A stretch of 48,053 nucleotides of DNA, from the NCBI GenBank assembly GCA_913030945.1, contig CAJWEP010000003.1:1-48053 (forward strand). Direction: 5' to 3'. A program made the translations under genes and the position numbers. The notes under the pieces were generated by a model. It was given only the letters and a program-made list of their open reading frames with translations. It was not told the origin of the DNA and ran no database searches. This DNA comes from an uncultured Verrucomicrobiota bacterium (GTDB lineage: Bacteria > Verrucomicrobiota > Verrucomicrobiia > Limisphaerales > UBA1096). The first letter of the stretch is position 1. Each line of letters starts with the position of its first letter. Positions 7,548 to 39,229 of this stretch are shown one piece after another.

Positions 7548-10500
7548 CTACTCACTCCCTTTCAGCACCCGTTGGCACAGCGCCGGCAGCACCACCAACG
7601 TCAGCGCGGTGGCGGTGAGGATGCCGCCGATGACGACGGTGGCCAGCGGTCGCTGAACCTCCGCGCCGGTGCCGGTGGCCAACGCCATCGGAACGAAGCC
7701 GAGCGATGCAACCAACGCGGTCATCAGCACGGGGCGCAGACGTGTGAGCGCTCCCTCGCGGATGGCTTCCCCGAGCGGCCTGCCCTGATCGCGCAACTGG
7801 TTGATGAACGTGACCAGCACCAGGCCGTTCAGCACCGCCACACCCGACAACGCGATGAAACCAACCGCCGCCGAGATGGAGAACGGCAGCCCGCGCAACG
7901 CCAGCGCCGCCACGCCGCCGGTCAGCGCCAGCGGCACGGCGGTGAAGACGAGCAGCGCCGGGCGCACCGCGCCGAAGGTCGCGTGGAGCAGCAGAAAGAT
8001 CAGCACAAAACAAACCGGCACAACGACGGCTAGGCGCTGCCGGGCAGCGGTAAGATTCTCAAATTGCCCACCCCAGTCCAGCCACACTCCGGCGGGAAGT
8101 TCCACGTCCGAGTTCACCCGCTCGCGCACTTCGCTGACGAATCCAGCCAAGTCGCGCCCGCGCACGTTGCACTGCGCCACCACGCGGCGTTTGCTGTTTT
8201 CTCGGCTGACCTGAAACGGCCCCTCGGTCTGCACCACCTCCGCCAACTCGCCAAGCGGCAACACCGGCGGGAGAGCGGCACTTTCATTTGCGCCACCCGG
8301 CAAAAGGATCGGCAACGCCGCCAGCGTGGCTGCCTGCTTCCGCTTGGCCTCGGGCAATCGGACGACAATGTCGAACCGCCGGTCGCCATCGAACACCTGC
8401 CCCGCCGCGCGGCCGCCGATGGCGATGTTGACGCTCGCCACCACGGCGGCGGCATCCAGCCCGTAGCGCGCCAATATTCCGGGCCGAGGTCGCACAGTCA
8501 GTTCCGGAAGGCCGGTTGTTTGCTCAACTTTCACGTCGGCCGCGCCGGGCACGTCATTCATCACAGCGGCGATTTTTTCCGCAGTGCGCCGCAGTTCAGC
8601 CGGATTTTCGCCGAAAACCTTCACCGCAAGATCGCCCCGCACCCCGGCTATGAGTTCGTGAAACCGCATCTCGATCGGCTGGGAAAATTCGTACTTGTTG
8701 CCGACCAAGGGGGCCACGGCGTCGCGCACTTTTGACTCGATGGAAATCTCACCCTCGGGTGCACGCTTGGCCAAGCGCGGCTCCGGCCACTCGGCACGCG
8801 GCTTGAAGATGATAAGCGTGTCCGAGACACTCGGCGGCATCGTGTCGGCCGCCAGGTCGGCAGTGCCGGTTTTCGAAAAAACCAGCTCGACCTCCGGCAA
8901 CTCCGGCAGCATGGCCACGGCGCGCTCGACCTCAAGTTGCATCCGAGTGGACTGTTCGATGCCGGTGCCGGGGATGCGCATCGCGTGCATGGCGATGTCG
9001 CCCTCGTCCAACTGCGGCACGAACACCTGCCCAAGGTTCGCGAACACCACGCCCGCGCCAAGCAGTATCGCCGACGCCGCGCCGAGCACCACACCCCGGC
9101 GGCGCAGTGCAAACTCCAGCACCGGTGCGTACCCCCGCCGCGCCGTTCGCATGAGGGCGTTGTCACTCTCCGCTACGCGCCCGTTTATGGCCAGAGCCAC
9201 CATCGCCGGCACGAACGTCAGCGACAACACGAACGCCCCAGCGAGCGCGAAGATCACCGTGAGCGCCATCGGGTGAAACAGCTTCCCCTCGATGCCGGTG
9301 AGCGCGAGAACCGGCAGATAAACCACCGTGATAATGCCGACGCCGAACACGAATGGACGGCGCACTTCATGGCTGGCGGCGCGGACAACGCCGAGCCGTT
9401 CGCTGAGCGTTAGCAACCGGCCCAGTTCGCGCTGGCGGTCGGCCAAGCGGCGCAGGCAGTTCTCCACAATGATGACCGAGCCATCGATGATAATCCCGAA
9501 GTCAATCGCGCCGAGGCTCATCAGGTTGCCGCTGATGCCGGCGCGATGCATCCCAGCTGCCGCGAGCAGCATCGAGAGCGGGATGGTCAGCGCGGTGAGA
9601 AACGCGGCGCGAAGGTTGCCGAGCAGCCCGAAGAGCACGGCGATCACCAGCGCCGCGCCGTAAAACAAATTGTGCGCCACGGTGTCGATGGTGGCGTTCA
9701 CCAGCCGCGAGCGGTCGAGCACGGGCCGAACGGCAATACCCGGTGGAAGACTGCGACGCACCTCCTCCAACTGCTCCGCCGCCGCCTTGGCCACGTCGCG
9801 ACTGTTCGCGCCGGTGAGCATCATCGCCGTGCCGACCACTGCCTCATGCCCGTCGACGCTGGCGCTGCCGAGCCGCATTTCGCCGCCGAGCGTGACGTCC
9901 GCCACGTCGCCAACGCGAACTGGTGTGCCGTTACTCTGCTTCACCAAGACGTCCGCAATGGCCGCCGAGCCCCCGAGTCGGCTGCTGGCCCGTACAAGCG
10001 CCGCCGAGCCATCACGTTCAATGTAACCCGCGCCGAGACTGAGATTGTTCCGCTCCAACGCGGCGGCGAGGTCGTTGAGTGTCAGGCCATGCGCGCTCAA
10101 CGGCCCAAGCCGAGGCAGCACGTGATATTGTTTCACATAACCGCCGATGGCATCGACGTCGGCCACGAGCGGGACGGTCTTAATCTGTGGCCGGATGATC
10201 CAGTCCTGCACCGTGCGCAGATAGGCCAAGCGTTGAACCTCGTTGGTGAGCCGCTCGCCACCGGGCGTGACGAAGCCGCCCGCTTGGCCAAGCGCAGGCG
10301 GATCGAACTCCACCGCCCACATGAGCACCTCGCCAAGCCCGGTGGTGATCGGCCCCATCCTAGGCTTGATCCCCGCCGGCAATGACTCCCGCGCAGCAGT
10401 CAGCCGCTCGTTGATTTGCTGTCGAGCAAAGTAAATGTCCACCGCGTCATCAAACACCGCCGTCACCTGGCAGAAACCGTTGCGCGATATCGACCGCGTA

Positions 10501-10742
10501 TGTTCCAGCCCCGGGATGCCGGCGAGCGCCGTCTCGAGCGGGAACGTCACCAACCGCTCGATGTCGCTCGTCGAAAACGCCGCGTGCTCGACGTTGATTT
10601 GCACCTGCTTGTTCGTGATGTCCGGCACGGCATCGATCGGCAGTTGCGACAACGACCACGCACCGAACACCGCCGCCACGAGCGTCAACGCCACCACCCA
10701 GTGACGCTGCTCGACAGAATATTTCAGGATTCGTTCAATCAT
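7548..10742 (-). CDS. czcA: CzcA/HME-type heavy-metal efflux RND transporter
   Basis: 1064 aa; [39 protein letters not shown] (HME-RND TM4 motif), [38 protein letters not shown]. Confidence 0.93.
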   Translation of the reverse strand: [1064 protein letters not shown]

Positions 10743-10754
10743 GAAGACTCCCTT

Positions 10755-11996
10755 TTAGTGCGAGTGGTCGTGCCCAGCCATGGCCTTGCCCAACTCGGCC
10801 TTGAGCAGGAAACCGCCTCGAACGACGAGCGCCTCGCCGTCCACCAAGCCACGCTTCACCGGCCTCCAGTCGTCGACCTCGGGGCCAACCGCCACCTCTC
10901 GCGCCTCGAACGTGTTCGCCTCGCCCGGCACCGGCACGAACACCACCGGCTGCCCGCCGATGTCCTGCACGGCCTTGGCCGGGACGGCGACCGATCGCTC
11001 AGCAGCGGCACCCGCCGGCAGCTTGGCCGCGACAAACATTCCGGGTCGCCATGAACCATCCCGATTGGCCACGACCGCCCGCGCCCGAACCGTGCGCGCG
11101 CCCGGCGTAGCCACCGGACTGACGTAATCGAGCGCGGCCGTGGCACTCCGACCGGTCGCCGGATCAGTCAGCGTCACGGACTGGCCCGCTTTCAACGCGG
11201 CGGCCCGCGCGGGCGACACCTCCGCAATCAGCCAGAGTTCACCCAGCCCGGCCACGACGAAAAGGTGCGACTGCTCCGGGCTAACCGTTTCGCCCAACGT
11301 GACGCCGCGCTCGACCACCGTGCCGCCGATCGGCGCGCGCACCTCGGCTTGAGGACGGATCACCCCGGTCTCCTCGAGCCGCGCGATGTCGGGCTGGGTC
11401 ATGCCGAACAATTGCAGCCGATTGCGTCCGCCGGCTTGGGTGGCCCGGGCCGACTTGAGCCGGGCCTCAGCAGCACTAAGGACGACCTCCCGTTGTTGTA
11501 CATCCGCCCGCGAGACCGCCTCGGCGGCGGCCAGTTCCCTGCCGGATTGAAAATACTGCTCCGCAGTTTGAAACCCTGTCGTGGCGGCGGCCAGTTCGGC
11601 GAGTTTGGCCAAATGATCGTTCTGCGCCGCGCCAAGCTCGGCGCTCTCGATGACGAACAACAATTCGCCCGCAGCAACCGAATCGCCGACGCCCTTGGCC
11701 AAGCGCGACACGCGGCCGCTCACCAGTGTGCCGACGTGCGCCAAGGCGTCCTCGTTGTAAGCCAGCCGCGCCGGGGCTGAAAACGTCTCACGCAACGCGC
11801 GCTGTTCCGCTTGGCCAAGCGCGATGCCGTGATGCTCGATGGCGGCGGCAGAGAGGACGATCTCATCCATGTGCGGCTCATCGGGTGAATCATGGCCGTG
11901 GCCGTGATCGCCGTGTGAATGGTCGTGTGCGTCGCCGCAGCCAACCAGCCAAAAAGCCAGCGCGCCGATGGTTGAAAAGGTGAAGATGGATTTCAT
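10755..11996 (-). CDS. czcB: CzcB-like efflux RND periplasmic adaptor subunit
   Basis: Signal peptide/lipoprotein-like N-terminus FWLVGCGDAHDHSHGDHGHGHDSPDEPH with His-rich tract; HlyD/MFP features EVRAPIGGTVVERGVTLGETV; C-terminal His motif AGHDHSH. Confidence 0.9.
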   Translation of the reverse strand: MKSIFTFSTIGALAFWLVGCGDAHDHSHGDHGHGHDSPDEPHMDEIVLSAAAIEHHGIALGQAEQRALRETFSAPARLAYNEDALAHVGTLVSGRVSRLAKGVGDSVAAGELLFVIESAELGAAQNDHLAKLAELAAATTGFQTAEQYFQSGRELAAAEAVSRADVQQREVVLSAAEARLKSARATQAGGRNRLQLFGMTQPDIARLEETGVIRPQAEVRAPIGGTVVERGVTLGETVSPEQSHLFVVAGLGELWLIAEVSPARAAALKAGQSVTLTDPATGRSATAALDYVSPVATPGARTVRARAVVANRDGSWRPGMFVAAKLPAGAAAERSVAVPAKAVQDIGGQPVVFVPVPGEANTFEAREVAVGPEVDDWRPVKRGLVDGEALVVRGGFLLKAELGKAMAGHDHSH

Positions 11997-13336
11997 TGTT
12001 TTTCTTTTGTTGTTTTTGTTTTGAAAATGGCCGCCGCACCTCCCGAGGCACGGCGGAGTTCGGTCGAGGCGTGTGCCGCCCGGAGCTCCAGTTGGACAGC
12101 CCGTAATTGAGCTTTTTGCAGGTCGAGCTCGGCCAGCAGCAGCGGCGTGATTCCCGACTGGCCGCTCTCGTAAATAGTGCGGGCCAGGTCCACCCGCTGC
12201 TGCTGAAGCGGCGTCAACTGCCCGCGAGCCTGCGCGGCGACAGCGGCGAGCTTGGCCTGCGCAGCGTGCGCCTGCCGGACTTCCTGCACGGTTTGCCGCA
12301 CGGTTTGCGTGAGCCGATGCCGCGCGGCGAGCGCCAAGGCGCGGGCCTTGCCACGGCGCGCCTGCCCCCAGTCGAACAACGGCAGCGGCACGGCCAATGA
12401 CGGGCCAAGCGACCAGTCGCCTTCCCGCTCAGCGTCCAGGCCGGCAGCGCTACTCTCGATCAACGCCAAGCGGGCGAGCGCGCGGCCGTCCTCGAGCGCG
12501 GCCAGTTGCCAGCGGTCGGCCAGAATCTCCGGTCGGTTTCGGAGAGCAGCAGCCAGCCACTGCGCTTCCGACCCGGCGTGTGCGGCAACCGGCAACGGCG
12601 TAGTTTGCGGCCAATCCGCGTCGCCGGAGGGCTGGCCAAGCAATCGGGCGAGAGTGAGTCGTTCGCGAGTCAGACTCAGGCGGCGATCCTGCAAATCGAT
12701 GCGGGTTTCGGCGCGGCGCGCCTCGAGTGCGGCGACGTCCAGCCGTGTGCCCTCGCCGGCGGTGAGTCGGTGTCGGGCGATTTGCAACAGCCGGTCGATG
12801 TGGCTGTCGCCCTGTTCAAGCAGCGCCACCTCCCGCCGAAGCGCATTGGCGGTGTGGTAACTTTTTTCCATGTCGGCAATGACGTTGAGCGCCGCGGCGA
12901 CCGCCCGGGCGCCGGCGGCGCGGAGCCGGTTGTCGGCGGCGCGAATGCGGCGGGGCGCCAGCAGCGCAGCGGCAAGGTCCGCTGCCAAGCCGGTTTCCGT
13001 CACGGGGCTGCCGCCACCCTTCGGGTAGCGGAACACTATACTCAACACCGGATTGGGAGGGAGCCTCGACTGCCGCGCATCGGCCTGCGCAGCGCGAACT
13101 TCGGCCAAGGCGGCCTGCAGCGTCGGCGATTGGCGCACCGCCCGCTCAATGGCAGCGGGAAGGTCGAGCGCATTGCCGATCGGCGGCGCGTCCGTCGGGA
13201 GCGCCTCGGCGCGGAACTGGACGGCGTTGGCCAAGCCGGCGGCGGCACGGATATCCGGCCCCGGGGGAGTGGCGCAACTCACGCCCAGCCCGAGGCCAAG
13301 CGCGCAAAAAAAGTAACGAGTTTTCTTGAACAACAT
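11993..13336 (-). CDS. czcC: TolC/CzcC-like outer membrane efflux protein
   Basis: Lipoprotein-like N-terminus LGLGVSCATPPGPD, NPVLSIVFRYP, GPSLAVPLPLFDWGQARRGKARA, YESGQSGITPLLLAELDLQKAQL; ATGA overlap with czcB. Confidence 0.85.
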   Translation of the reverse strand: MLFKKTRYFFCALGLGLGVSCATPPGPDIRAAAGLANAVQFRAEALPTDAPPIGNALDLPAAIERAVRQSPTLQAALAEVRAAQADARQSRLPPNPVLSIVFRYPKGGGSPVTETGLAADLAAALLAPRRIRAADNRLRAAGARAVAAALNVIADMEKSYHTANALRREVALLEQGDSHIDRLLQIARHRLTAGEGTRLDVAALEARRAETRIDLQDRRLSLTRERLTLARLLGQPSGDADWPQTTPLPVAAHAGSEAQWLAAALRNRPEILADRWQLAALEDGRALARLALIESSAAGLDAEREGDWSLGPSLAVPLPLFDWGQARRGKARALALAARHRLTQTVRQTVQEVRQAHAAQAKLAAVAAQARGQLTPLQQQRVDLARTIYESGQSGITPLLLAELDLQKAQLRAVQLELRAAHASTELRRASGGAAAIFKTKTTKEKQ

Positions 13337-30255: not shown

Positions 30256-30287
30256 TTTAAACTTATTAGGGAAGTTGGACGAATCCA

Positions 30288-30758
30288 TCACCCATCTCGG
30301 CCGCCCTCCGCTTGGCCTTTGTTACGATTCTTCCGCCACGGCATGTCCGGGAACTTGCCCGGCAGCTTAAACGACTCCGCTTTGGGCTTGGCCATTTGCA
30401 GTTCGTCATCGCCAGCGGCGCTTAAGGCCGCGTCCGCGCCGGGTTGTTTCCACGAAGCGATCTTCGACTGGAGCCCATGATGCTCGGCCGCCTCCTTGTT
30501 GCCTGTTTTCATGTAAAACAGCGAAAGGTTCGTGTGAACCAACTGGTCGTTGGGGCACAGTTTCTCGGCCTTGTGCCCTTCCTCAATCGCCCGCTCGTAT
30601 TGCTTCAGTCGGCACAACGCCATGCTGAGCGACATGCGGGCGTCGAAATAGTTTCTGTCCGCCGCGAGGATCGCCTCGAAGCCGTCGACCGCCTGCTCGT
30701 ACTCGCCTTGACTGAAGGCGAACGTGGCCTCATCAAATTGTTCCTGCAACTCGTCCAT
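30288..30758 (-). CDS. TPR-repeat protein
   Basis: FAFSQGEYEQAVDGFEAILAADRNYFDARMSLSMALCRLKQYERAIEEGHKAEKLCPND. Confidence 0.75.
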   Translation of the reverse strand: MDELQEQFDEATFAFSQGEYEQAVDGFEAILAADRNYFDARMSLSMALCRLKQYERAIEEGHKAEKLCPNDQLVHTNLSLFYMKTGNKEAAEHHGLQSKIASWKQPGADAALSAAGDDELQMAKPKAESFKLPGKFPDMPWRKNRNKGQAEGGRDG

Positions 30759-30826: not shown

Positions 30827-30859
30827 AAAAAAAAGCCCCGGCAGCAACCCGCCGGGACC
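30827..30859 (-). terminator. Rho-independent terminator downstream of the LRR-cytochrome gene
   Basis: Minus-strand GTCCCGGCGGGTTGCTGCCGGGGCTTTTTTTT. Confidence 0.75.
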
Positions 30860-30881
30860 TCGAGAAAAATCGTTTACCTGT

Positions 30882-32213
30882 TTATTTTTTTACCTTGGCA
30901 ATGTGCTTGGCCGGTTCCTTGGTAAAGTCGCCAAGGCAGTTGTCGCAGCAGAAACCGATCACGAATTTCTTGGATGCATCGATGTCCTTGCCGCTGATCG
31001 GGCACTTATTATTGCCCGGCCCCTTGATTTTGGCGATGTGCTTGGCCGGTTCCTTGGTAAAGTCCCCGAGACAGTTGTCACAGCAGAAGTTAATGGCGAA
31101 GAGCTTGGCCGGATCGACGGCCTTGCCGCTGACCGGGCATTTCTTGTTGAAGCTGACCTGCTTCGCTTCCTCTTTCTTTACTTTCTTTTTTTCAGGTTTG
31201 GGCTCTTCTTTTTTGGGTTTGGGAGCTTCCTTCTTCTCCTCTTTCTTAGGCTCGACCTTGGCAAGTTTGAAGCCGAGGTTGACATCTATGTTAGGCAACG
31301 CCTTCTTCAGCTCAGCTGCACCTTTCTCGGTCACACCGCTTTGCCAGGCATAAAGCTTGTACAGGAATTTCATGTCCTTGAGGCTGGCCAAGCCGGCGTC
31401 GGTAACCTTGGTGTTGTAGAGGTTAAGCGACATCAGGTTAGTGAGCCCCTCGATCTGTTTCAGCGCCGCGTCATCGACCGATGTGTTGGCCAGGCTCAGC
31501 TTGGTCAAGTTCGTATTACCCTTGATGTAACCCAGACCTTTGGCGGTAATTTTCGTATTAGCCAAATCCAACTCGGACAGATTTGTGATGTCAGCCAGAG
31601 GAACGATGTTGTCATCATTGACATTTTTCCCGACCAAGCGGAAGTTGGCATAAATAAGTTTGGTGTTTTGCGCCAGTGCCATTACCAGTGGAGCAGAGGA
31701 TTTGTCCCCGATCCCCTCGCCGGAACTGAGCTTGGCGATGGCAGCCTTCTCAGCATCGGAAACGGGCGCCTCCTTGATTTTCGGCTCTGGCAACCTGTTG
31801 GCGGCAGCCTTGGCAGCAGCCCGATCCTTGGCGCTGATTAACACCAATCCTTCCGGCCAGTTAGCGCCCTCATCGATCCACTTCTTAATGGTTTCAATCT
31901 GCTCCTTGGTCAAAGGATCACCCTTGGACGGCATAATGTCGTCGTGATCTGCCGGAAGCGAAATGTGCTTGTAGATTCCACTCTCGGCGGATTTGCCTGG
32001 AACCAAGACTGGTTCCTCGCTTTCACCTCCCTTCAAGGTGGCCTCAAGAGTGTCCATCCGAAGTTCACCTTTCGGCTTTTTCAGACCATGACACTCGACG
32101 CAACGCGCCTCAAAAATACTTTGGATCGATTTAACAAAATCAACCTTATCCTCCGCCCAGCCATCCAGGGCAAAGGCGCCAACAGAAAGAATTATTGCAA
32201 TTGTTTTTCTCAT
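30882..32213 (-). CDS. Secreted protein: cytochrome c (CxxCH) + leucine-rich repeats + two YHS/TRASH-like Cys domains
   Basis: FEARCVECHGLKKPKGELRMDTLEATLKGG; LSELDLANTKITAKGLGYIKGNTNLTKLSLANTSV; CPVSGKAVDPAKLFAINFCCDNCLGDFTKEPAKHIAKIKG and CPISGKDIDASKKFVIGFCCDNCLGDFTKEPAKHIAKVKK. Confidence 0.8.
   Translation of the reverse strand: MRKTIAIILSVGAFALDGWAEDKVDFVKSIQSIFEARCVECHGLKKPKGELRMDTLEATLKGGESEEPVLVPGKSAESGIYKHISLPADHDDIMPSKGDPLTKEQIETIKKWIDEGANWPEGLVLISAKDRAAAKAAANRLPEPKIKEAPVSDAEKAAIAKLSSGEGIGDKSSAPLVMALAQNTKLIYANFRLVGKNVNDDNIVPLADITNLSELDLANTKITAKGLGYIKGNTNLTKLSLANTSVDDAALKQIEGLTNLMSLNLYNTKVTDAGLASLKDMKFLYKLYAWQSGVTEKGAAELKKALPNIDVNLGFKLAKVEPKKEEKKEAPKPKKEEPKPEKKKVKKEEAKQVSFNKKCPVSGKAVDPAKLFAINFCCDNCLGDFTKEPAKHIAKIKGPGNNKCPISGKDIDASKKFVIGFCCDNCLGDFTKEPAKHIAKVKK
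30901..31064. repeat. 29-nt identical direct repeat (30901-30929 and 31036-31064) encoding the duplicated Cys domain
   Basis: atgtgcttggccggttccttggtaaagtc appears twice, 135 nt (45 codons) apart. Confidence 0.95.
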
Positions 32214-32296
32214 TTTCGCGTGAATCCAGACGCAGATTATCCACGATGTATTTATCGATGGCAACCGGAAAATTGCGCTTTATTATAACAGAAAAT

Positions 32297-35774: not shown

Positions 35775-35960
35775 TCACTTTGCCCGGTTCCGGCAAGTTC
35801 GCAAACGACTCCCTCTCACGGCCTCGAGTGAGCGAATGGACTCCTGGAGCCGTTGGGCATTCGCAGGGACTCGCAGGAGATAAGCCGTCTCTTCAACAGC
35901 CACCTCATTCTCAAGAAAACTTACGTCCACTGGCTGTTTTTCTTTTCCACTGATATTCAT
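35775..35960 (-). pseudogene. Truncated YefM/Phd-family antitoxin (C-terminal half only)
   Basis: [29 protein letters not shown] closely matches the recalled E. coli YefM segment [29 protein letters not shown]; no N-terminal DNA-binding part and no toxin ORF adjacent. Confidence 0.75.
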
Positions 35961-38900
35961 TTTGCTACAGCTACTTTGTTCGCCTCCCGATTTGTCGGGG
36001 TGAATTTGTGGATCAGCTTGCCGGTGTTGACGTTCCAGAGCCGGAGGATGCCGTCGAAGCCCCCGCCGACAGCCAACCTACCGTCCGGTGTCACGTCGCT
36101 GGTGTGCATGTAGGCACTAGTGTCCGGCAGGCGGCGCACCTCGCCACCGTCCTCTTTCACAACTTTCACGACATGATCACCGGCTGAGACGACTGCCTGC
36201 GTGCCGATGCCAAGGAAGTGCACCGAGGTGACTTCTTTGTCGAATCCGCTGAATGATTTCTTTTGTTCGCCGTTTAATAGGTTCCAGATTTTCACCGCCT
36301 TGTCGGCGCCGACGGTGGCCAGCACGCGGCCGTTTTGCTGCCAACTCACACCCAGCACGTGGCCGGTGTGCCCTTCGAGCGCCCGGAGTTCCCTGCCCCG
36401 GCTGGTCTCGAACACACGAGCAAAGCGGTCGGTGCCGCCCGTGGCCAAGCGACTGCCGCTCGGAGAGAAGGCCAGCGAGCAGACCGTGTCGCTGTGTGCC
36501 ATGGGGATTCGCAATTCCTCGGAGCCGTCCTCCATGCTCCAGATGAAAATCTCCCCGCCGCGCGACGGGAATCCGCCGCCGGTGGCGAGCCATTGGCCGT
36601 CGGGGCTAAAGTCTAGTGCGATCACACGGTCCTCGAACGGCGATTCATCGTTGCCGCCGATGGATCGTGCCAAAGCCCACATCGGCTCGACGGCGAGCAT
36701 CAACATCTCCGGAGAATCGCCGGTCAATGCCAACCGCCCGTTGCTCAACGGCTGCATAAACCGTGCCGACCGAGCGGACGAGTCAACGGCATGCGAACGG
36801 ATGCCGGTGGCGCTGGCCCAAGCCTGAACCCGCCCATCGACGGACAGCGTGTAAACCAGCAATCCGTCGTCCGAGTATGTAGTATCGATCCAATCCTGCA
36901 TCCCCGCGGCCGCCACCGACTTGGCCTCGGCGAGCGCTGCTTCGTGCCGGACGGGCAGTTTGTCGGCTTCGGCCTGCGCTGCCCTGGTTTGCTCCAGGTT
37001 CGCCTCGGCAGTTTGGATGTTTTTGCTGGTGAACCCAACTTCCGACTTGGCCAAGTCAACCTCACGCTTGGCTTTCTTGATCGCATTGCCGGCATCGGCT
37101 GTTTTTTTATCGAGCGCTTTTTTCTCCTCCGGCGTTTTCTTTTTGCGTTCCTCGAGTGCGGCCAGGGCTTTCACTTTTCCTTCGAACTCCTCCTGTGCCG
37201 GCTTCACTTTGGCCTCGGCCGAGGCGAACGAGCGGGCAGCAGCTTGTGCCCCGGTTTCCGTCTTGGCCAGTTGCTGCCTGGCCGGGGCGAACCGGTCGAG
37301 CGCAGACTCGAATTGGTCGGCCTTGCGCTTGGCCAAGGCAGCGGCGACATCGGCCTGCATGGCCAACGCCTCGTCTCCCTTGGCCTTGTCGGCCGAGGTG
37401 CGCACGTCTGCGGCCAGCTGCCGGGCGTTCTGAGCAGCCGAGCCAAGTTCCATCAACTCGGCGGTCAGTTTCGCTTTGACGGTGGCGGCTTGGGCCTTGG
37501 CCTCGCGGGCCTTGGCCAGGGCATCCTTGGATTCGGCGGTCCGCGCCTGCGCCGCCTTCAACGCTGCGTCGGCACCGGACTTGGCTTTTGTCGCGGTCTC
37601 GATTTTTTTCGGCAGTGCGGCGATTTCGTCGGTCAGTTTTTTCAGGCTGGCTTCGCTGTCATTTTTCTCCTTGGTTTTGTCGGCCACGGTTTTTTCATGC
37701 TTGGCCAAGGCCTCTGTCGCCTTCTTCGCGGCTTCCCTGTCCTTTTTGAGTTCCTTCTCTTTGCTCTCGACGTTGGCCTTGTGGTAGCCGGTCTCGGCCT
37801 TCACAAATGCCAGCGCCTGCTCTGCCCGTGCCACCGACTCGGCGGCGAGCGGGTTGCCTTCCAGTTGGGCTGTCATCGCCCACTTGTTTGTTGACCAAAG
37901 TTTCGCCGTCGGCCCTCCGAGGGTGGCGAGTTGTTCGCCGTCGGCCCGAATCCGTAGTCCGGTTACAGGCGCGCCGTGGTCGAGTGCCCCGATCTGCCTG
38001 CCGTCCTCGACACTCAGGACCATCACCGTGTTGTCGGCACGGCCGGCAAGCACTGTGTCTCCCCCCGGCAATGCCGCCAGCGCGGTGATGTCACCGCCCG
38101 GTTTCCATTCGTGCACATCTTGTCCGGGGTTGATCGCAGCCCAGATTTTGATAATGCCGCCGGGATGCGCTGACACGAGCTGTTCGTCGTCCAGCCAAAC
38201 GACGGCTTGGACCGCCGGTGGCGATGATTCGCGCGTGACGCGCTCCCCGGTCACTGTTTCCCAGACACGCACTTTTCCATCGGTAAACGACACGGCGACC
38301 CGGTTGCCGTTGGGCGACACGGCCAATTGTCCGGCTGCCTGGCCCGGGACTTGGTCGCTCCAGAGCGGCATCATGCTTTGCAGATTGATCGCCTGGACTG
38401 CCCCGGCCGAGCCGGCAACGAGCACACGCCCCCGGCCAGGAGCGGCGCCGAATGCTGTGACTGACTCGCCGCCGGACAGCAAGGTCAGCGGGCGGGCCGC
38501 CGACGCCGTTTGCCGCCGCCAAAGCTTGGCCACGCGATAACCTCCCGAAGCCAGCATTTGGCCGTCGGGGCTGAACGCGAGCGACTGCACGACATCCCGA
38601 TGCGCCACGGCGACCGCGGCGGGGTTACCCTTGGCCAAGGCAGGATCGAAAAGCCGGGCGGCAAGGCGGCGGGTCGGCAAGTGGTAGACAAACACCTGAT
38701 TGCCACGGCCACAGGCGGCGTACTGGCCGTCCGGCGAAATGGCAGCGGTGTAAATCGGCTTAAGGGCGAAAGGAAGCGGACGCCAGTTCAATTCCTGCGT
38801 CACCCGTGGCACTTCGCCCTTGGCACCTTCATCGATCCAAAGCTTGAGGAGGCCAAGCTGGTGGGGCGTAAGCTTGCCGGCGCTGACCTTGTTACGCCGC

Positions 38901-39229
38901 GGCGGCATGAACGGTTTCTCGATCTGCCGGGTGTGGGCCATCAACAGGCTCTTGTTGGCGTCCCCCGGCACGACCATCTGGCCGTTTTCGCCGCCCTTGG
39001 CGATGGTTGCGGGTGTCTCGAGGTTCAGTTCTCCCTCGGCATCCCGGGTGTTGTGGCAGGCGAGGCAGTTTTTGCGCAGGATCGGCAGAATCTCGCGGGC
39101 GAAATCGACCGGCTTATCGCGACTCAAGTCGGTGACATCAAGCCCGGCCGGCGGCTCTGCTACAAGGAGGGGCGGCGCGGCCAGAACCAGGCTTCCGGCC
39201 ATCATCGTGCTCAGGATTGCGTACTTCAT
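35957..39229 (-). CDS. Planctomycete-type cytochrome c + WD40 repeats + long coiled coil + WD40 repeats, 1090 aa
   Basis: CLACHNTRDAEGELNLETPATIAKGG; VQSLAFSPDGQMLASGGYRVAKLW; central KEKELKKDREAAKKATEALAKHEKT coiled coil; VIALDFSPDGQWLATGGGFP and VCSLAFSPSGSRLATGGTDRFARVF. Confidence 0.85.
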   Translation of the reverse strand: MKYAILSTMMAGSLVLAAPPLLVAEPPAGLDVTDLSRDKPVDFAREILPILRKNCLACHNTRDAEGELNLETPATIAKGGENGQMVVPGDANKSLLMAHTRQIEKPFMPPRRNKVSAGKLTPHQLGLLKLWIDEGAKGEVPRVTQELNWRPLPFALKPIYTAAISPDGQYAACGRGNQVFVYHLPTRRLAARLFDPALAKGNPAAVAVAHRDVVQSLAFSPDGQMLASGGYRVAKLWRRQTASAARPLTLLSGGESVTAFGAAPGRGRVLVAGSAGAVQAINLQSMMPLWSDQVPGQAAGQLAVSPNGNRVAVSFTDGKVRVWETVTGERVTRESSPPAVQAVVWLDDEQLVSAHPGGIIKIWAAINPGQDVHEWKPGGDITALAALPGGDTVLAGRADNTVMVLSVEDGRQIGALDHGAPVTGLRIRADGEQLATLGGPTAKLWSTNKWAMTAQLEGNPLAAESVARAEQALAFVKAETGYHKANVESKEKELKKDREAAKKATEALAKHEKTVADKTKEKNDSEASLKKLTDEIAALPKKIETATKAKSGADAALKAAQARTAESKDALAKAREAKAQAATVKAKLTAELMELGSAAQNARQLAADVRTSADKAKGDEALAMQADVAAALAKRKADQFESALDRFAPARQQLAKTETGAQAAARSFASAEAKVKPAQEEFEGKVKALAALEERKKKTPEEKKALDKKTADAGNAIKKAKREVDLAKSEVGFTSKNIQTAEANLEQTRAAQAEADKLPVRHEAALAEAKSVAAAGMQDWIDTTYSDDGLLVYTLSVDGRVQAWASATGIRSHAVDSSARSARFMQPLSNGRLALTGDSPEMLMLAVEPMWALARSIGGNDESPFEDRVIALDFSPDGQWLATGGGFPSRGGEIFIWSMEDGSEELRIPMAHSDTVCSLAFSPSGSRLATGGTDRFARVFETSRGRELRALEGHTGHVLGVSWQQNGRVLATVGADKAVKIWNLLNGEQKKSFSGFDKEVTSVHFLGIGTQAVVSAGDHVVKVVKEDGGEVRRLPDTSAYMHTSDVTPDGRLAVGGGFDGILRLWNVNTGKLIHKFTPTNREANKVAVAK

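Follow-up and report, generated by a model that had tools for sequence, protein, structure and literature searches.

A mono-heme cytochrome c domain of the PSCyt1 type, an LRR block, a disordered linker and two cysteine-containing modules related to the YHS/TRASH family are combined in a single protein of an uncultured marine Verrucomicrobiota bacterium. This architecture is real, recurs in two phyla in soluble as well as membrane forms and is undescribed in the searchable literature; a search made mostly outside subscription journals returned no reports on PSCyt1-LRR-YHS proteins or on DUF2231 cytochromes. At the level of sequence, the domain order, the presence of orthologs in most genomes of the genus, the conservation of ligands and cysteines, the homology to YHS and the recurrence in two phyla are established. 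With regard to function, we consider it about an even chance (probability roughly 0.5) that the protein acts as an exported heme-LRR scaffold that binds a partner through its LRR block and whose tethered thiol modules would take up or hand over metal in the vicinity of this partner, in a manner coupled to the heme. The fusion of a heme domain to a putative metal module in two phyla and two topologies provides a testable handle on the function of PSCyt proteins, and a heme-linked, tethered form would extend the YHS/TRASH family.

Domain organization, export and conservation

In the window, i.e. the whole analysed stretch of 48,053 nucleotides, the open reading frame at 30882-32213 was confirmed at exactly these ends. 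It lies on the minus strand, as do all further features of the gene given below, starts with ATG and encodes 443 amino acids, the stop codon being included in the coordinates. By sequence inspection, residues ~1-20 (MRKTIAIILSVGAFALDGWA; 32154-32213), which AlphaFold2 models with a pLDDT of ~33, form a putative Sec signal peptide. They are followed by the PSCyt1 mono-heme cytochrome c domain (residues ~22-120; 31854-32150), which matches PF07635 with 47.5 bits at residues 38-95 (cutoff 22) and is modelled with block-mean pLDDT values of 55-94, mostly above 69. The planctomycete-type cytochrome c proposed in the initial annotation on account of an N-terminal CxxCH segment was thereby confirmed. 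Both the heme attachment site, C38-V-E-C41-H42 (32088-32102), and Met94 of an IMPxKG motif (31932-31934), the putative distal heme ligand, are invariant in 17 orthologs; the role of Met94 as axial ligand is an assumption that we take over from class I cytochromes c. The nearest solved sequence relative of this part of the protein is the c-type cytochrome FoxE (5mab), a weak match (E 6.4e-04) from which no functional conclusion is drawn.

In a Pfam scan of the 443-residue protein the LRR block (residues ~171-316; 31266-31703) scores above the cutoffs of both LRR_4 (30.3 bits, cutoff 27) and LRR_6 (23.6 bits, cutoff 23.4). Its block-mean pLDDT exceeds 90, and in agreement with this model the Foldseek matches in the PDB are LRR proteins (best E 4.4e-07). 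The adjoining Lys/Glu/Pro-rich linker (residues ~317-355; 31149-31265) appears disordered, as judged from a pLDDT of ~31-35 at residues 321-350 and from the length of the region 317-364, which varies from 28 to 73 amino acids between orthologs. Two YHS-type modules, assigned by invariance and hhalign, form the C-terminus and share the motif CPxSGK...FCCxNC: module 1 comprises residues 356-398 with C359, C377, C378, C381 and H392 (31020-31148) and module 2 residues 401-443 with C404, C422, C423, C426 and H437 (30885-31013). They are 74% identical over 43 amino acids and have an identical 20-residue stretch, FCCDNCLGDFTKEPAKHIAK, in common. The LRR units, the Lys/Glu/Pro-rich linker and the two similar C-terminal cysteine domains had all been noticed in the initial annotation. 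The HlyD_D23 core is absent from the Pfam scan, so that the protein is by its domains not a CusB-type adaptor.

Export to the periplasm is probable for this protein, which would there be a c-type cytochrome with a single heme on an LRR scaffold. Heme attachment in c-type cytochromes is extracytoplasmic, and the host genome encodes two Cytochrom_C_asm proteins, so that the attachment machinery is probably present. Together with the signal-like N-terminus, which was recognized by eye, these points support the earlier suggestion of a secreted protein. An intrinsic-terminator-like hairpin with a 13-pair stem and a T tail (30832-30861), identified as a consensus match only, begins 20 bases past the stop codon, and the gene is therefore probably transcribed alone. 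Upstream of the ATG lies a weak sigma-70-like promoter candidate, TTGCCA-17-GATAAT (32236-32264), with a 10/12 consensus match.

Of the 20 other genomes of the genus, 16 encode a full-length ortholog with both modules, and the two-module architecture is thus not due to chance. The genomes in which no ortholog was found are incomplete assemblies (61-77% complete). In the 17 genus orthologs all ten cysteines as well as H42, M94, H392 and H437 are invariant. The mean pairwise identity among these 17 proteins is 0.79 for PSCyt1, 0.83 for the LRR block, 0.78 for module 1 and 0.88 for module 2; in their conservation the modules match the heme and LRR domains. Within a given protein, the C-terminal halves of module 1 and module 2 (positions 30885-31148 of the window and the orthologs) resemble each other more closely than across species. 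Their mean of 0.89 was reached by none of 20000 random pairings, which suggests gene conversion or correlated selection.

Relationship of the modules to the YHS/TRASH family

The assignment of the modules to YHS rests on homology via intermediates. The 443-residue protein itself reaches 20.5 bits against PF04945 (YHS) and lies below the cutoff of 30.3. This cutoff is exceeded by stand-alone modules of the genus (34.5 and 36.7 bits) and by modules of the DUF2231 form described below (up to 54.5 bits). When eight modules of the genus were compared by hhalign with eleven related modules, a probability of 99.0% (E 4.5e-18) was obtained. The proteins that contain the eleven modules exceed the YHS cutoff for the most part; L131, L140 and L111 are slightly below it, and L115 and L151 were included without a Pfam scan. 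The eleven-module profile also matches the YHS domain of phenol hydroxylase. As judged from these sequence comparisons, the modules genuinely belong to YHS/TRASH, in a shortened form and with a changed ligand set.

The likeness to the family consists in the short cysteine module, the F-C-x3-C motif and the downstream F...P helix. The four positions (D/C)-x2-C-...-C-x3-C given for YHS/TRASH (PMC4626032), in contrast, are not retained in full, as the second position is occupied by Ser, and an extra vicinal cysteine is found beside the third ligand position. Furthermore, the hairpin is shortened to C-x17-C, compared with C-x22-C in related YHS modules. By sequence, the modules are homologous to YHS but do not form a canonical metal site. 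The YHS/TRASH-type character claimed in the initial annotation is upheld by the homologs, but not by the protein's own PF04945 score or by its ligand set. AlphaFold2 predicts the module fold, for which a treble-clef-like structure would be expected from the family, with moderate confidence (pLDDT ~60-70, ~69 for the modules). A Foldseek search with the modules alone gave no significant match, and a phmmer search of the modules against PDB sequences gave none.

Distribution and history of the architecture

PSCyt1-LRR-YHS cannot be called unique, as such proteins also occur in other families and in the Planctomycetota. The initial annotation had called the combination unusual, and this remains appropriate with respect to the searchable literature but not with respect to its occurrence across two phyla. 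Its proposed search for the same domain order elsewhere located such proteins in four other families as well as in Planctomycetota. In the four other families of the order, the arrangement PSCyt1-LRR-YHS(1-3) occurs as a DUF2231 membrane form. These DUF2231-PSCyt1-LRR-YHS proteins (L103, L104, L110, L200, L209, L216 and others) show the same domain order with one to three YHS modules. They differ in carrying an N-terminal DUF2231 membrane anchor instead of the signal-like segment and in a longer YHS hairpin, and they constitute their own clade within Verrucomicrobiota (support 100/100). The soluble proteins of Planctomycetota (L178, L179, L185, L196, L208, L213) contain PSCyt1, LRR, linker and one to three YHS modules and no DUF2231; compared with the protein studied here, they have ~34-50% core identity and longer YHS hairpins. 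The soluble form was found in G727, G633, G761, G671, G737 and G739, to which the core search added G699 and G595. The DUF2231 form is present in G711, G650, G544 and G748 and likely also in G586, G696 and G644; these counts are minimum values among the best matches, and the assignments derive from sequence patterns and reading rather than per-protein Pfam scans.

Sampled proteins from other families of the order are of the PSCyt1-LRR type, mostly with a K/E tail devoid of modules (L026-L037, L046), and most of the nearest Verrucomicrobiota relatives that were checked likewise consist of cytochrome, LRR and K/E tail. As many close relatives lack the modules, these are not essential to the chassis. 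Related modules are also fused to DUF2231 membrane proteins (L130 and, by eye and without a Pfam match, L132). In CusB-type heavy-metal efflux adaptors (L120, L131, L140) a related YHS module is similarly located at the C-terminus of an envelope protein, but the core consists of HlyD_D23 and HMBD, and heme and LRR domains are missing. These three adaptors carry one or two C-terminal YHS modules. More distantly, the available sections of He et al. (PMC5615132) describe multidomain PSCyt1 (PF07635) cytochromes from Planctomycetota and Verrucomicrobiota, in which the same CxxCH mono-heme domain is accompanied by a repeat domain or an interaction domain; PSD, CBM, Big_2, WD40 and F5/F8 are named there as partners, and LRR and YHS do not appear in these sections.

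In a tree restricted to Verrucomicrobiota, the genus forms a clade among module-free proteins, with the DUF2231 form apart. When Planctomycetota were added, one state change sufficed, the added sequences being a biased sample obtained with a YHS query. A less biased tree, for which Planctomycetota and relatives were sampled by the core alone, requires five changes, four of them forced by well-supported branches, and places the genus as sister to a clade without modules (99/97). Judged from these trees, the YHS tail is evolutionarily labile, with at least four to five state changes. A simple genus-level addition of the tail was suggested by the tree of Verrucomicrobiota but weakened by the inclusion of Planctomycetota; a gain in the genus and a loss in the sister clade are both compatible with the core-sampled tree. 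Capture from the stand-alone triple-module gene of the genus was also considered, as both have the short C-x17-C spacing; both groupings are compatible with the AU test (p 0.365 and 0.316), the module tree having too few columns to discriminate between them. The stand-alone, exported-looking protein with three YHS modules (L005, 1498-2067, minus strand; G000:C118) is conserved in the genus, and its middle module has near-canonical spacing in this genome. In two Planctomycetota PSCyt1-LRR proteins, L230 and L220, other C-terminal domains replace or precede the YHS module; by their sequences, the tail is exchangeable.

Possible functions and genomic context

The most likely role appears to be the capture or delivery of metal within the envelope, given that a heme domain is accompanied by invariant thiols on a flexible tether. 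Metal handling is also made plausible by the fusion of YHS modules to CusB-type efflux adaptors in the phylum, and a YHS domain renders a mycobacterial adenylyl cyclase responsive to Cu2+ (PMC4626032). In such a mechanism, each module would coordinate a single thiophilic ion, with Cu(I)/Cu(II) as the most likely metal and Zn as a possible one. The candidate ligands are C359/C377/C378/C381 in module 1 and the cysteines 404/422/423/426 in module 2, perhaps together with His. The disordered tether would allow the modules to capture or deliver the metal near the partner held by the LRR block, and the heme may supply or remove electrons for the metal chemistry or for the partner. The serine at the canonical second ligand position counts against this reading, as do the moderate confidence of the predicted module fold, for which Foldseek gave no significant match, and the many close relatives that lack the modules. 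In the envelope, moreover, the vicinal cysteines may be no more than disulfide partners. The downstream neighbours that are conserved comprise genes for TPR, Rieske, NUDIX, PPIase and ThuA proteins and a coiled-coil-like ORF; no metal-efflux or copper gene adjoins the cytochrome-LRR-YHS gene in a conserved manner in the compared loci, and this absence is a real weakness of metal handling as an explanation.

It is possible, if clearly less probable, that the modules are structural, with permanently bound Zn or two disulfides each, and serve as docking knobs for an envelope partner; there would then be no metal transfer, and the heme would carry electrons in another pathway. The altered ligand set with Ser at the second position would fit such a role, as would the swapping of tails among relatives, which carry no module, one to three YHS modules or other domains, as in L230 and L220. 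In addition, the YHS domain of toluene-4-hydroxylase was solved without metal (PMC4626032). On the other hand, in four relatives the CPISGK motif of module 2 is changed to CIFQDK whereas the four module cysteines are retained, which argues for selection acting on the thiols themselves, and related modules are found on heavy-metal efflux adaptors. Going beyond the metal capture or delivery favoured above, the proteins might represent an undescribed class of the PVC bacteria, in which the PSCyt1 heme alters the redox state of Cu (or Fe) on the tethered YHS modules while the LRR block positions a client, i.e. a cytochrome-driven metal oxidase or chaperone with soluble and DUF2231 forms. We regard this proposal as speculative and rather improbable.

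According to the available sections of PMC5615132, the 'planctomycete-specific' cytochromes are abundant and of unknown function, and the context of their numerous genes connects them to sulfatases and carbohydrate-binding modules. The present protein might accordingly be part of the general machinery for oxidizing carbohydrates that has been proposed for PSCyt proteins, with the LRR block docking an enzyme and the YHS tail being incidental. More than 20 PSCyt1-like matches in G000 would be in line with this. However, no CBM, PSD or sulfatase was detected in the protein by Pfam scan or in the conserved neighbourhood, and the YHS tail recurs in separate branches of two phyla, so that we consider such a role unlikely, slightly more so than the metal oxidase or chaperone. 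That the modules are decaying remnants without present function, for which the PF04945 score below the cutoff and the shortened hairpin could be cited, is already disfavoured by the eight cysteines and two histidines that are invariant in 17 orthologs and by a module conservation similar to that of the core, and is highly improbable.

The Rieske gene encodes a 104-residue [2Fe-2S] protein. All sufficiently long loci of the genus (L010-L017, L019-L024, L038, L040-L045) carry it, with the TPR gene on one side and orf102 on the other. In the window it is missing: the TPR gene directly adjoins orf102 at a scar (30276-30295) that resembles the start of the Rieske gene, and a search of this genome gave no further copy. 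Either the gene was truly lost or the assembly is faulty here. Elsewhere in the window, a tripartite RND efflux operon with an AcrB-type pump, an HlyD_D23 adaptor and an outer-membrane channel is present at 7548-13336 (minus strand), and a second PSCyt1 protein, encoded at 35957-39229 (minus strand), has WD40 propellers and a long middle part rich in Lys, Ala and Glu.
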